Shown piece by piece: positions 26,581-33,577 of a DNA stretch of 33,944 nt. The position numbers and the translations under genes are program-made. The stretch's first letter is position 1. Every line of letters starts with the position of its first letter. Below the pieces are notes generated by a model. That model was not told the DNA's origin. It saw only the letters and a list, made by a program, of their open reading frames with translations, and searched no databases. Origin of the DNA: Spirochaetia bacterium (GTDB lineage: Bacteria > Spirochaetota > Spirochaetia > DAHUYW01); contig JASHNV010000060.1 of NCBI GenBank assembly GCA_030041455.1, forward strand, positions 1 to 33,944, given 5' to 3'.

Positions 26581-26787
26581 ATGGCCGAGAAGAAGCCGGA
26601 AGGGAAGCCGAGGACGCCGCGCGCGAAGAAGCCGGCGCTAACCCTCGACCAGCTGCGGCGCGAGATCGCGGAGCGCGCGCATGAAATCTTTCAGGAGCGG
26701 ATCTCGGGCCGCCGCCGCGGAGGCGACGAGCTTTCCGACTGGCTTTCCGCGGAGGCCGAGGTGAAAAAGCGCCACGGCGTCACGTAG
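26581..26787 (+). CDS. DUF2934-like small protein
   Basis: LRREIAERAHEIFQERISGRRRGGDELSDWLSAEAEVKKRHG resembles the short DUF2934 motif. Confidence 0.7.
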   Translation: MAEKKPEGKPRTPRAKKPALTLDQLRREIAERAHEIFQERISGRRRGGDELSDWLSAEAEVKKRHGVT

Positions 26788-28663
26788 GGGAAGGCGGCAG
26801 GCGGCTCTCGGCAGGTCTCGATCCCCGGAGGTTCCACCCGGCCGGTCCGGGGGAAAGGCGCACGAGCGGTTCCGGTCCCTCGATACCCTTCAGGACGGCC
26901 TCGAACGTCTCGATCCGCGCGTCGAGGTTCGCGAGCATGCCGGGGATCTCGTCTCCGGCGCCCATCCTCGCGCTCAGCACAATGTCTCCGCCGTCGCTCA
27001 GCGCTTGGATGCGCGCGGCGATGTTCACCGTTCGGCCGAAATAGTCGAGACGATCGTTCGAGTTGACCGCGATCGCCGGACCGTGATGGAGGCCGATCTT
27101 GATCACGATGCCGTCGGCCAGGCCCGCGTTGAACTCGTCGACGTGCGATTGAATCGCGAGCGCGGCCGCAAGGCCGTCGGTCGGCGTCGGGAAGACCGCC
27201 ATGACCGCGTCGCCGATCGTTTTGACCACCGACCCATGGTTCCGCGCGATCCATTCCGTGAGGAAGCCGAAGTGCCTGCGGACCTCTCCGTAGGCCCTGG
27301 CGTCGCCCGCGGTCTCGTAGAAGGAGGTGGAGCCGAGGAGGTCGGTGAACATGAGCGTGACGCTCTCGACGCCGATCTGCTGGCCGGGTGAGAGCACCTC
27401 CGAGGAGAACATCCGGCGGAACTCTTCCATGGTGGTCACCATCGCGGCGGTCACCGCGTCCCTTCCCCAGTCCGATCGCTCGCAGGCGATGACGATGTCG
27501 CGTGAGCTCTCGTTGCGCACGAGGATCTCGGAGGCGCTCGCGTCGAGCTCGACGGCCGGACGGCCCCAACCGTCCTCGCCGTAGACGATCTCCGCGGCCG
27601 GACGCCGGCCGTCCTTTCGGACCTCGACGATCCGGTTGGCCTGGAGAGCCCTCATGCGATAGGCCGAGACCTCGGAAGGCACCTCCACCACCGTCGCGCG
27701 TCCGCGCTCGGCGATCGCCTGAACGTAGATATGGGGCGTGATCTGCGGTCCCCCCACGCAGTAGACCTGCTTGACCGCCTTGCGGATGTCGGGATGAACC
27801 GAGAACGTGAGCTCCACGGAGCGGTCGAAGCTCGCGGTGTAGTCGATCGCGCAGAAATCGCAGTGGAACCGCTCCGGGGTCTTTCCGAGCGTCGGAGCGT
27901 CGACCTTCGCCACCCGGCAGTTGGGACAGATGAGGTGCCAGCTCAGGTTCGTGACGCCGGCCTTCGTCGCGTAGAGGAACCACCGAAGGACCTCCTCGCG
28001 ATCGAGTCCCCAGCGGTCGGCGAGGACGAACGGTTTCATGTCGATGACTTCGTCGTCTCCGGACCTCGCGATGTGGTCGCGGAAGCGCTCCGTCGCCTCG
28101 ATCGCGACCGGACTGGCGGCAAGCTCGCCGAGGAGTCGGTCGGCGACTCCGTCGTTCACGCGGTAACTCGCTTTCGGGGACGGCAGAAGGCGCTCGGCGA
28201 AGCCGCGGTTCAGCTTGAGGTAGTCGCTCACGTACTTCATCGTCTTCACCATCGAGCCTCGACCCACGAGCGGAATGGCGAGGAGGCCGACGAGGTTGCG
28301 CGGCGTGAACTCCGCGAAGAGCTCGATGAGCGTCGAGCGGCCCGCTTCGGCGCCGTCGCGCAGCCGAACGCCGCCGTAAAATCGCTCCATCGGACCCCCG
28401 AGGTACTTTCGCACGACCGAGTAGTATCTCCCCCGGGACCACTGAAAGGGGAACTCGCTCCAGCGCAGGCTCACCGGCCCCGCGACGCGGGCGACGAGCG
28501 TCCTGCAGTAGCCCCCGTCCGACCGGACGGCGCCGCCCGCCTTCACGGCAAACAAGCCGATGACCCGGTTCATGTGGTCGGTGTTGGCGACAAGCTGCCA
28601 GACTCTGTCGCGGCTCAGCGGCACCTCTCGCTCGAGCTGGTAGGTTCGCGGTTTGAACGCCAT
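26780..28663 (-). CDS. Class III adenylate/guanylate cyclase with N-terminal SRPBCC-like and central zinc-ribbon regions
   Basis: TLMFTDLLGSTSFYETAG, GSVVKTIGDAVMAVFP, RLDYFGRTVNIAARIQ cyclase motifs; N-terminal YQLEREVPLSRDRVWQLVANTDHMNR (SRPBCC-like); CPNC...CDFC. Confidence 0.88.
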   Translation of the reverse strand: MAFKPRTYQLEREVPLSRDRVWQLVANTDHMNRVIGLFAVKAGGAVRSDGGYCRTLVARVAGPVSLRWSEFPFQWSRGRYYSVVRKYLGGPMERFYGGVRLRDGAEAGRSTLIELFAEFTPRNLVGLLAIPLVGRGSMVKTMKYVSDYLKLNRGFAERLLPSPKASYRVNDGVADRLLGELAASPVAIEATERFRDHIARSGDDEVIDMKPFVLADRWGLDREEVLRWFLYATKAGVTNLSWHLICPNCRVAKVDAPTLGKTPERFHCDFCAIDYTASFDRSVELTFSVHPDIRKAVKQVYCVGGPQITPHIYVQAIAERGRATVVEVPSEVSAYRMRALQANRIVEVRKDGRRPAAEIVYGEDGWGRPAVELDASASEILVRNESSRDIVIACERSDWGRDAVTAAMVTTMEEFRRMFSSEVLSPGQQIGVESVTLMFTDLLGSTSFYETAGDARAYGEVRRHFGFLTEWIARNHGSVVKTIGDAVMAVFPTPTDGLAAALAIQSHVDEFNAGLADGIVIKIGLHHGPAIAVNSNDRLDYFGRTVNIAARIQALSDGGDIVLSARMGAGDEIPGMLANLDARIETFEAVLKGIEGPEPLVRLSPGPAGWNLRGSRPAESRLPPSPT

Positions 28664-28961
28664 CTGCGCCTTCCTCTCTCGATGGTACCATGCCGTGCGC
28701 GGCGTGTTAACCGCGCGCTTCCCCGGCGCCAGAGGCTTTCGCCTGGGCCTCGGACGCGGAACCTCGCGCGCCGGAGTCGCGCCGTTCGACCGCTTTCCGA
28801 TGTCCAATGTCTCGATTTTGTCAGGTGACCGGTTGCGTGCGAAGGGCACGCGTGGGAGACGGCGCCGCGCCGAGCGACGCCGTCGCGGGAGAAAAATAAT
28901 TTGCGTTCCCTTCGAATAGGGTACACAATGAACGTACACCCCACTTCGAAAGGAGATGAGA

Positions 28962-29639
28962 ATGAGACGGACTCTTGCTATGACATTCGTGCTTGCCTGC
29001 ACGCTTGTGGTCGGTGTCTCCGCGCAGACGTTGGTCCTCAGCAGAGACTTTACTCAGAGCGGGCCGGCGACCCCCTCGTACGGCGACTGGGCGGTGAACA
29101 ATGGGAGGCTGTACCAGAATAACGTCTATTCGCCGCTCGCCAAGATCAACCTTGCCGCCTCGCAGTCGGGCATCATGCAGTACGCGTTCAACGTTCGGTA
29201 CGAAGGCGGCGGCGAGGATCGCAAAGGAGGCTTCGGCATCGAGGTCTATATCGACAACGCGTTCGACGGGCGTTCCTGGGGAGACGGCCACTCGTATCTC
29301 CTGTGGCTCAACTACGACGAGCACCCCACCTATGGGGGGGCCGGCTTTCGCGCCCAGGTCTATCGCAGCACGTCGCCGACCGATATGACCCTCATGCCGG
29401 GCTACGACATCGCGCTCGATCCCTCCTACCTGACTCAGGATAACCTGTCGATGGTCGTTCCCGTGACAATCACCATCAACAGCGACACGGGCGACGTCAC
29501 GGTCAAGGATCCGACGCGGGACAATTGGGAGTACGCGTTCAACCTCGGCGCTGCGCCGGGATCCGGAAGCTATATCGCGCTCAGGACCAACAGTCTCGCG
29601 GTGAGCTTCGGCAATCTCACGGTGACGCAGCTGCAGTAG
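28962..29639 (+). CDS. Secreted protein of unknown function, beta-rich
   Basis: Signal peptide MRRTLAMTFVLACTLVVGVSAQ; AAAGGAG ribosome-binding site; GGFGIEVYIDNAFDGRSWGDGHSYLLWLNYDEHP. Confidence 0.75.
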   Translation: MRRTLAMTFVLACTLVVGVSAQTLVLSRDFTQSGPATPSYGDWAVNNGRLYQNNVYSPLAKINLAASQSGIMQYAFNVRYEGGGEDRKGGFGIEVYIDNAFDGRSWGDGHSYLLWLNYDEHPTYGGAGFRAQVYRSTSPTDMTLMPGYDIALDPSYLTQDNLSMVVPVTITINSDTGDVTVKDPTRDNWEYAFNLGAAPGSGSYIALRTNSLAVSFGNLTVTQLQ

Positions 29640-29943
29640 CCGGGGTCCCGGCGTCACGGGAGATCTCGAGAGACCGGAGCCGAGCCGAACGGGTCGAGGC
29701 GCGCTCGTTCGGCGAGCAGGCATGATCGCAGCCTTCTCATGCGCCCGCGGGTTTTTAAGGAGGCTCATCGTTCGGCGCCGTTCCGCGACCCCCGCGCGAT
29801 CGCGGTCTCTCGGGCTATCTCTTCGACGGAGGGGGCTCGGCGGAACGACACGGGAACTTTTCTCCTCGACGTTCGTCAAACCGAGTCGCGGGCCGGCGGA
29901 GAGACGCCCCGGGTCGCCACCCGACACTTCGGAGGAGACAACG

Positions 29944-30381
29944 ATGAGAAGACGATTCCGCCGGCTGCTCGGCCTTTCAGCTTTGATCCTGCTTGCCTTC
30001 GGGGGGGCTGCCGCGGCGTGGTCCGGTCCGACTCTCCAAGTTTCCACGAGCGCCGCGCCGGTCAGCTCGGGCGATACGGTTTCGTTGCCGGACACCGCTC
30101 CCGGAAGCTTGAGCGCTCCGCTCACCATCACGATTCTCAACGTCGGCGATCAGGACCTGAGGTTTCTCGGCGCTCGACCCGTAGCGGTCTCCGGACTCGG
30201 CGCCAAGATGTTCGAGATCGTGCCCCAGCCGCGAGGGCCGATAGCGCCCGGCAGCTTCGCGAGCTTCGGCATCGTCTTCGCGCCGACCGCCGCCGGAACC
30301 CACGACGCCACCGTGACGATTCTCTCCAACGATCCGAACGCGCCGGGCTTCACCTTCTACGTCTCAGGCGACGGAATGTGA
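29944..30381 (+). CDS. Exported choice-of-anchor-D/ASPM-SPD2-Hydin-like single-domain protein
   Basis: Signal peptide MRRRFRRLLGLSALILLAFGGAAAAW; PLTITILNVGDQDLRF...FGIVFAPTAAGTHDATVTILSNDPNAPGFTFYVSGDG. Confidence 0.8.
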   Translation: MRRRFRRLLGLSALILLAFGGAAAAWSGPTLQVSTSAAPVSSGDTVSLPDTAPGSLSAPLTITILNVGDQDLRFLGARPVAVSGLGAKMFEIVPQPRGPIAPGSFASFGIVFAPTAAGTHDATVTILSNDPNAPGFTFYVSGDGM

Positions 30382-30479
30382 GCCGGGGGCGCGCGCGGTG
30401 TCCCGCGTACTTTCCGCCGCGGACATCGAACCGATGCGCTCGGCTGTCCGCGCGGCTCCAGGTATGATATAGTTCGCGA

Positions 30480-31187
30480 GTGGACATTGATCTCGCGCAC
30501 GCCCACCGACAGTTTCCCGCGGTCGCCGAGTATCTGAGCAGCATCTACATACTCCTACGCGACTACGGCTACGTGAGCAACACGCGGCTCGCGGAATGGA
30601 CCGGCGTGAGCGGCTCGGCCGTCACGCAGGCGCTATCGCGGCTGAAGCGTCTCGGCCTCGTCCGGCAAAAGCGCTACGAGAACGTCCTTCTCACGGAGGA
30701 CGGACGAACGCTCGCGGTCAAAGTCCTCCGCCGCCACTACTTGATCGAGCATCTCCTCGTCGCGGTTCTCGGCTATCCGTGGGACAAGGCCGACGAGGAG
30801 GCGAAGCTCCTCCAAAGCCAGATTTCCGACGATCTCACCGAGCATCTCTATCAGAGGCTCGGCTCGCCCCAGACCTGTCCCCACGGCAATCCCATGCCCG
30901 GCGCGGCGATCGAGGCGAAGCTCCTCGCAGCCGCGAAGCTGAGCGAGGCTCCCGAAGGCCACGTGGCGCTCATTCTGCGGATCACTGAGGAGGGAGAGCA
31001 GATCCCCGAGATGCTCTCGTTCTGTTACAGCAACGGGATCCAGCCAGGCAGGCGTTTCACGGTACGGCGCGCCGACGATGAGCACCTCGGCCTCAGCGCC
31101 GCTGCCCGAAGCGACGACGTCGAGAAGCGGGGAGAGATTCTTCTCGCGACGGCTCTTGCCGAGCACATCCGTTACGAGAACGGCTGA
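30480..31187 (+). CDS. DtxR/MntR-family transcriptional regulator
   Basis: AEYLSSIYILLRDYGYVSNTRLAEWTGVSGSAVTQALSRLKRLGLV; RRHYLIEHLLVAVLGYPWDKADEEAKLLQSQISDDLTEHL; CPHGNPMPG. Confidence 0.88.
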   Translation: MDIDLAHAHRQFPAVAEYLSSIYILLRDYGYVSNTRLAEWTGVSGSAVTQALSRLKRLGLVRQKRYENVLLTEDGRTLAVKVLRRHYLIEHLLVAVLGYPWDKADEEAKLLQSQISDDLTEHLYQRLGSPQTCPHGNPMPGAAIEAKLLAAAKLSEAPEGHVALILRITEEGEQIPEMLSFCYSNGIQPGRRFTVRRADDEHLGLSAAARSDDVEKRGEILLATALAEHIRYENG

Positions 31188-32497: not shown

Positions 32498-32836
32498 TTA
32501 CAAGCCAATAATCTCGTTCAACCCCTCGAGGGCTTGCGTGATTTCGCGCAACGAAGCCTTGCCGAGACGTTTCCCGACTCGTTCCGCCGCGAGGGTGCGG
32601 ATCTGACTCATCTTCGCCCACGACCGTTTCGGCAGCGTGCCTTCAGCGAGCTCCAAGGTCAGAGGGAAGCCGGCACGTTGCTCTTGGCTCGTGATCGCCA
32701 TCGCAATAACGGTCCCCGATCTTTCATTGAACACGTCCTGACTGAGAATGAGCACCGGGCGCTTCCCCGCCTGCTCGCTTCCTCGAACCGGGTTCAGGTC
32801 AGCCCATCGAATCTCGCCTCTCAATATTCCGGCCAT
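32498..32836 (-). CDS. mazF: MazF/PemK-family toxin (endoribonuclease)
   Basis: RGEIRWADLNPVRGSEQAGKRPVLILSQDVFN...; typical MazF N-terminal motif and length. Confidence 0.93.
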   Translation of the reverse strand: MAGILRGEIRWADLNPVRGSEQAGKRPVLILSQDVFNERSGTVIAMAITSQEQRAGFPLTLELAEGTLPKRSWAKMSQIRTLAAERVGKRLGKASLREITQALEGLNEIIGL

Positions 32837-33063
32837 TGTGTGTGGTCGACCCCGAGCCCTTCTTCCGCAAGCGATCGCTCAAACGCAGGATCGAGTTTGG
32901 CAAGCTCATCGACAAGCCGCGTCCGGCCTATGCGAGCGAGCTTCTCGAGAAGAGCTTCTTCCACGACGCGACTACGGTTCACGTAGCTGCGATCCCTAAC
33001 AAGACGATCAACCTGGGCAACCAGTTGGGCGTCAATCGTAACGGCAATCTTCGATTTTGGCAT
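32821..33063 (-). CDS. mazE: Ribbon-helix-helix antitoxin of the MazEF-type pair
   Basis: MPKSKIAVTIDAQLVAQVDRLVRDRSYVNRSRVVEEALLEKL; 16-bp overlap with mazF; acidic/aromatic C-terminus. Confidence 0.88.
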   Translation of the reverse strand: MPKSKIAVTIDAQLVAQVDRLVRDRSYVNRSRVVEEALLEKLARIGRTRLVDELAKLDPAFERSLAEEGLGVDHTQWPEY

Positions 33064-33072
33064 TTTTTCTCC

Positions 33073-33099
33073 CTGAGTATGACGATACATCATACTCAG
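33073..33099. promoter_or_regulatory. Perfect 10-bp inverted repeat upstream of mazE: candidate autoregulatory operator
   Basis: CTGAGTATGA-CGATACA-TCATACTCAG, 9 nt upstream of the antitoxin start codon; minus strand contains TATGAT. Confidence 0.75.
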
Positions 33100-33106
33100 C
33101 CGGTCG

Positions 33107-33577
33107 TCAATGCTGTCTTCTGCTCGACCGCTCCCATTGCTGTTGCATCTCGCGAAAGACCTCTTCATTCTCTGGAGAGAAAATCACTGCTCTGGCTAGG
33201 TGCCAGAACCAACCATCGGAGACCTTAAGGATATACTCTGGGGCCCCGCCCGCCCGAACCGATAGAATACCAGCCTGCTCGGGCATGAACTCGATATCTA
33301 CAGGCAACCCTCCTTCATGGACGAGCTCGCAACGAAACCACGTATAGAAAATCTTCTCTACCGGCCAAAGCACACTTCGATACTCGACCGCGATGCGAAC
33401 TGAACGTGATGCCTCTAAGAACAGACGAAACGCATCGCCGTCGTTGACAGCCGATCGATTGGGGTAGCGTTTTCGCGCGCTCGCGGCAACGGCTATCAAG
33501 ATTGATAGGAAGGCCCCCTCTCGTCGGTTTTGCTCCCAAAGGAGTATTGCGTCATCCACTCGATCTTTTATGCTCAC
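33107..33577 (-). CDS. Hypothetical protein with possible HEPN-like R-x4-H motif
   Basis: 156-aa alpha-rich ORF; EKIFYTWFRCELVHEGGLP contains R-C-E-L-V-H. Confidence 0.6.
   Translation of the reverse strand: MSIKDRVDDAILLWEQNRREGAFLSILIAVAASARKRYPNRSAVNDGDAFRLFLEASRSVRIAVEYRSVLWPVEKIFYTWFRCELVHEGGLPVDIEFMPEQAGILSVRAGGAPEYILKVSDGWFWHLARAVIFSPENEEVFREMQQQWERSSRRQH

Follow-up and report, generated by a model that had tools for sequence, protein, structure and literature searches.

Can a DtxR-family regulator that no longer carries its primary metal site still answer to metal? The textbook mechanism of this family is a two-site, ordered activation, as in IdeR and DtxR, and the question is raised by a gene on a contig of a Spirochaetia bacterium (JASHNV010000060.1; the window, i.e., the whole stretch of 33,944 nucleotides that was analysed). 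A previous examination of the letters of this stretch (the sequence-only reading) had described the gene product as a DtxR/MntR-family protein with a degenerate metal-binding site, and had predicted a metal-independent or otherwise-sensing regulator.

Domain layout and the lost primary site

The regulator gene occupies positions 30480–31187 of the forward strand and encodes 235 amino acids from a GTG start. Its coordinates, strand, and start were all checked and found correct, and the frame is open. Scores exceed the Pfam cut-offs for PF01325 (Fe_dep_repress) and PF02742 (Fe_dep_repr_C). The winged helix-turn-helix DNA-binding domain (residues 17–67, positions 30528–30680) is placed by the PF01325 match and by alignment to IdeR, and retains Q50, aligned with IdeR Gln43. 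The dimerisation/metal-binding domain (residues 72–140, positions 30693–30899) is placed by PF02742 (1.1e-24), and the FeoA/SH3-like domain (about residues 148–232, positions 30921–31175) by a weak FeoA match (PF04023, residues 153–198, slightly under the Pfam cut-off) and a fold match to full-length IdeR, MntR (5zr6), ScaR, and SloR. AlphaFold, supplied with 81 sequences, gives a confident model (pLDDT 95.1, pTM 0.90), and the solved structures of IdeR, MntR, SloR, ScaR, and MtsR are matched by both sequence and fold. The NCBIfam equivalog cut-offs are missed by far (107 vs 290 bits for DtxR, 106 vs 350 bits for MntR). By descent and fold, the protein is classed as a full-length DtxR-family member, and predicted not to be a two-site DtxR/MntR-type sensor. 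Its nearest named relatives come from Spirochaetales metagenome assemblies; family relatives, most of them likewise from metagenome assemblies, occur in Spirochaetota and Chloroflexota.

In HMMER alignments to IdeR, residue i of IdeR corresponds to residue i+7 of the regulator up to the CPHG loop, which pairs M10 with E17, H79 with H86, E83 with E90, H98 with D105, C102 with K109, E105 with Q112, and H106 with S113. Where a primary site has Met/Asp10, Cys/Glu102, Glu105, and His106, the regulator has E17, which lies within the winged-helix domain at the position of the ligand Met10, and K109, Q112, and S113 (positions 30804–30818, forward strand). D105 (positions 30792–30794), in place of IdeR His98, is an invariant change within the clade to another potential ligand. 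These alignments bear out what the sequence-only reading had reported, namely the substitutions of His98, Cys102, Glu105, and His106, a Glu at the N-terminal ligand position, a retained His/Glu pair (IdeR His79/Glu83, here H86/E90), and intact wHTH and CPHG motifs (the PF01325 match; C133 and H135 of the CPHG loop). As regards the primary site, its term degenerate is correct.

It had also been asked whether orthologues share the substitutions, and those at 40–65% identity do so for D105 and Q112. Since the frame is open and these orthologues have both residues, the loss of the primary site is due neither to chance nor to decay. Acidic residues (E17, E109, D113) are kept in some relatives, where they might still bind a second metal.

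The second metal site and the order of changes

IdeR Glu83 and His98 are ancillary ligands, and the ancillary ligands contributed by the SH3-like domain of IdeR are Glu172 and Gln175. The latter two align with E170 and E173 of the regulator, which lie in a RITEEGE motif (positions 30978–30998, forward strand); ScaR Asp160 aligns with E170. H86 and E90 (positions 30735–30749, forward strand) align with IdeR His79/Glu83 and with ScaR His76/Glu80. C133 and H135 of the CPHG loop (positions 30876–30884, forward strand) correspond to ScaR Cys123/His125 in the HMM alignment (PMC4805248, PMC9253540). It was reported that the second site of ScaR has Glu80, Cys123, His125, and Asp160 as ligands (PMC4805248), and that site 1 of MtsR and SloR has His76, Glu80, Cys123, and His125 (PMC9253540). 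In the HMM alignment, the counterparts of the ScaR/SloR/MtsR-type site 1 are all present (H86, E90, C133, H135, and E170, with Glu for Asp). As judged by alignment, the second site is complete, Asp taking the place of His98 and Glu that of Gln175; the convergence of its ligands would follow from homology to solved relatives. The ligand survey of the sequence-only reading, accurate for the primary site, had overlooked the CPHG-loop (C133, H135) and FeoA/SH3-like (E170, E173) ligands. At the level of sequence, alternative ligands that could restore a site are present.

In streptococcal MtsR, sensing is dominated by the corresponding site: repression is abolished when that site is disrupted, and only weakened when site 2 is (PMC9253540). 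The ancillary site of IdeR takes two ligands from the SH3-like domain; it binds metal with the higher affinity and is the first to fill, and metal bound there fixes the SH3-like domain (PMC10317159).

Conservation was assessed in 46 distinct relatives picked for D105 and Q112, so that the invariance of those two residues among them is circular; both are also invariant in 30 orthologues chosen by similarity alone. The loci from two genome searches overlap, and identical proteins were collapsed wherever rows were counted. H86, E90, C133, H135, E170, and E173 never vary in the 46 rows. Twenty-nine columns are invariant, and of the 43 H/E/C/D residues in the protein, eight are invariant, six of which form the site 1 set. 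Positions 109 and 113 are highly variable (entropy ranks 180 and 170 of 235). Residues 17 and 109 are acid/base in 12 rows, base/acid in three, and Glu at both in four; their covariation reaches the 95th percentile only and is suggestive at most.

These data bear on the proposal of metal independence, according to which the regulator would always bind DNA or respond to a non-metal switch, the site 1 residues being structural only. The primary-site ligands are gone, the acid-base pairs at 17/109, seen in 15 of 46 rows, could stabilise the active form in the absence of metal, and PgMntR, from another DtxR branch, binds DNA in its apo form (PMC4805248). However, none of the six potential site 1 ligands, which come from three distinct segments of the chain, varies in the 46 rows, and the linkage to iron transport described below persists in the clade. 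We consider metal independence improbable: the degenerate primary site of the sequence-only reading stands, and its metal independence is opposed by a site 1 that is complete and invariant in the 46 relatives.

The order of changes was read from a maximum-likelihood tree of 90 rows from which columns 17, 105, 109, 112, and 113 were left out (a quick search with SH-aLRT support only, rooted on a paralogue). A single change between H105 and D105 suffices (branch support 100), and all D105/Q112 rows lie on one side of one branch (support 98) nested in the D105 clade. Each of the 51 D105 rows in the tree has the second-site letters HECHEE. Only N34, Q112, and C182 distinguish the D105/Q112 rows from the other relatives. 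C182 (positions 31023–31025, forward strand), a clade-specific cysteine in the FeoA/SH3-like domain, replaces a hydrophobic residue (Leu, Ala, Val); 45 of the 46 D105/Q112 rows have it, and the 45 other relatives (12 D105/E112 and 33 H105 rows) all lack it. The tree and alignments read as an ordered loss, in which His98 changed to Asp once, Glu105 changed to Gln once together with the new C182, and positions 109 and 113 then drifted.

The gain of C182 on the branch of the Glu105-to-Gln change, together with the invariance of C133, could be taken to indicate a sensor of metal and redox state, in which the two cysteines pair (dithiol/thiolate) and oxidation, a thiol-bound metal, or a cluster controls DNA binding. 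On the other hand, C182 stands where others have a hydrophobic residue and might be no more than a buried side chain, and one D105/Q112 row has Ile there; such a sensor appears unlikely. Similarly doubtful is a subfamily in which the primary site gave way, on one branch, to a contact of residue 17 with residue 109 that needs no metal and to a C182 acting with C133, which would yield a one-site sensor of metal and redox state.

Gene neighbourhoods and the upstream region

Of 33 close relatives, 17 have FeoB encoded in the retrieved locus stretch, as do nine of 33 full-site relatives, the latter nearly all from Chloroflexota; Nramp was found in none of the retrieved stretches of either group. 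In eight loci, feoB lies directly upstream of the regulator gene on the same strand, at 55–128 bp, and FeoA-type genes precede in several. Among the closest clade (L033–L038), the gene neighbours have no metal gene in common, and FeoB lies about 3 kb from the regulator in two of these loci. A search for FeoB in the regulator's own genome (95% complete) gave weak GTPase-domain matches only, none with the FeoB C-terminal domain. The same genome encodes an intact DtxR/MntR paralogue (G000:C35:2255-2782), flanked by two Nramp-family genes on opposite strands. Locus linkage favours iron for the subfamily, because FeoB occurs in the loci of relatives and Nramp beside the intact paralogue, and in many relatives the regulator is probably linked to ferrous-iron uptake.

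Within the window, no recognised metal gene lies near the regulator. Immediately upstream on the same strand (positions 29722–30381) is a gene for a protein with a HYDIN/CFA65-like Ig domain, and the reverse strand carries a protein with a DUF5939 stretch followed by an adenylate/guanylate cyclase catalytic domain (positions 26780–29002), as well as an apparent toxin-antitoxin pair comprising a MazF/PemK-like toxin gene (positions 32498–32836) and, just upstream, a ribbon-helix-helix gene (positions 32821–33168). That the genome encodes another, intact family member next to Nramp genes, and that the window copy is not adjacent to a metal-transport gene, would be expected if the regulator were a decaying duplicate of the intact paralogue and regulated nothing. 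However, the frame is undisturbed, intact orthologues occur in many genera at 40–65% identity, and the 29 invariant columns are maintained, which makes decay highly improbable; as a candidate, it was rejected on the intact orthologues.

Some additional family members were observed. In four loci (L008, L009, L035, and L036), the regulator is closely preceded on its own strand by a short second DtxR-family member of 164–169 amino acids (ligand letters H/E/C/E/H). Two proteins from other genomes of the class (L143 and L144) have CPHG, a DtxR-like Cys at 109, and His at 105, i.e., an iron-type full site close to the regulator's subfamily.

Upstream of the start codon, the window reads TATAGT (positions 30468–30473, forward strand), TCGCGA, and GTG, which places a -10-like box exactly 6 nt before the start, a spacing shared by most orthologues. 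In the upstream regions of L033–L064, 18 of 32 orthologues have TANNNT at exactly this 6-nt distance, 28 of 32 have it 4–10 nt ahead of the start, and three of 32 have an SD-like core; control genes from the same loci gave 20 of 106 against about 16 expected, a comparison weakened by starts taken from the longest frame. The regulator mRNA is probably leaderless, and conserved as such, because most orthologues have the -10-like box at the 6-nt spacing and Shine-Dalgarno-like sequences are rare. Scans for DtxR/IdeR boxes gave no match above shuffled expectation upstream of the window gene and nothing consistent upstream of the regulator and three feo operons, and a palindrome scan upstream of the regulator found nothing shared.

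Proposed mechanism and comparison with known systems

We favour, as the fairly probable reading of these alignments, a DNA-binding regulator that acts as a dimer, is activated by metal, and has a single metal site in each subunit rather than two; it would most likely be a repressor. The metal would most likely be Fe(II), or failing that Mn(II). We infer that it binds at site 1, between H86, E90, C133, H135, and perhaps D105 of the dimerisation domain on one side and E170 and E173 of the FeoA/SH3-like domain on the other, and that binding drives repression: occupancy of site 1 would fix the FeoA/SH3-like domain and thereby set the DNA-binding domains for the operator. In IdeR, the primary site links the DNA-binding and dimerisation domains via Met10; here this link may be replaced by side-chain contacts, presumably between E17 and K109. 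IdeR Glu105 is close enough to His79 for a hydrogen bond (PMC10317159), and Q112 could retain this bond to H86. A one-site switch is not the default of the family, because in IdeR losing the primary site does the greater damage, mutations there being more harmful than ancillary-site mutations (PMC10317159). The switch must, on this comparison, have been rebuilt and not merely trimmed.

With a clade in nature that gave up the primary site in steps and retained the other, the role of each site could be tested directly, as could the ability of a single site to drive the switch. The clade further suggests that Spirochaetota have a ferrous-iron regulator, and it warns that the primary site alone is insufficient for calling such proteins metal-independent. 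The open-access literature, covered in part and at the level of titles and abstracts, held no evident precedent for metal-independent DtxR regulators or for Feo-linked DtxR regulators of spirochaetes.

Among known systems, the best fold matches are IdeR and DtxR, the iron-dependent repressors of Actinobacteria, with which the SH3-like domain is common. The ancillary positions His79, Glu83, and Glu172 of IdeR are kept in the regulator, while His98 is replaced by Asp and Gln175 by Glu; the IdeR primary site (Met10, Cys102, Glu105, His106) is absent, and CPHG stands where IdeR has SPFG. The best PDB sequence match is MntR (5zr4/5zr6), which has the full three-domain architecture. In both this protein and the own-genome paralogue, the primary site is retained, with H, E, E, and H at 105, 109, 112, and 113, and Asp occupies the position of the regulator's C133.

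The streptococcal manganese regulators MtsR, ScaR, and SloR have the three domains in common with the regulator, and their site 1 (His76, Glu80, Cys123, His125, and ScaR Asp160) corresponds to H86, E90, C133, H135, and E170. ScaR and SloR retain a second site (SloR Asp7, Glu99, Glu102, His103), where the regulator has E17, K109, Q112, and S113, and MtsR has a site 2 of its own (His32, His95, His161, Asp163). Unlike these three, the regulator's relatives are linked to FeoB and not to ABC manganese importers. PgMntR of Porphyromonas gingivalis, a DtxR-family protein with a FeoA domain, is predicted to have additional ligands in that domain and in the corresponding loop (PMC4805248); it differs in having two FeoA domains and in keeping the primary-site residues D19, C108, E111, and H112 (PMC4805248).
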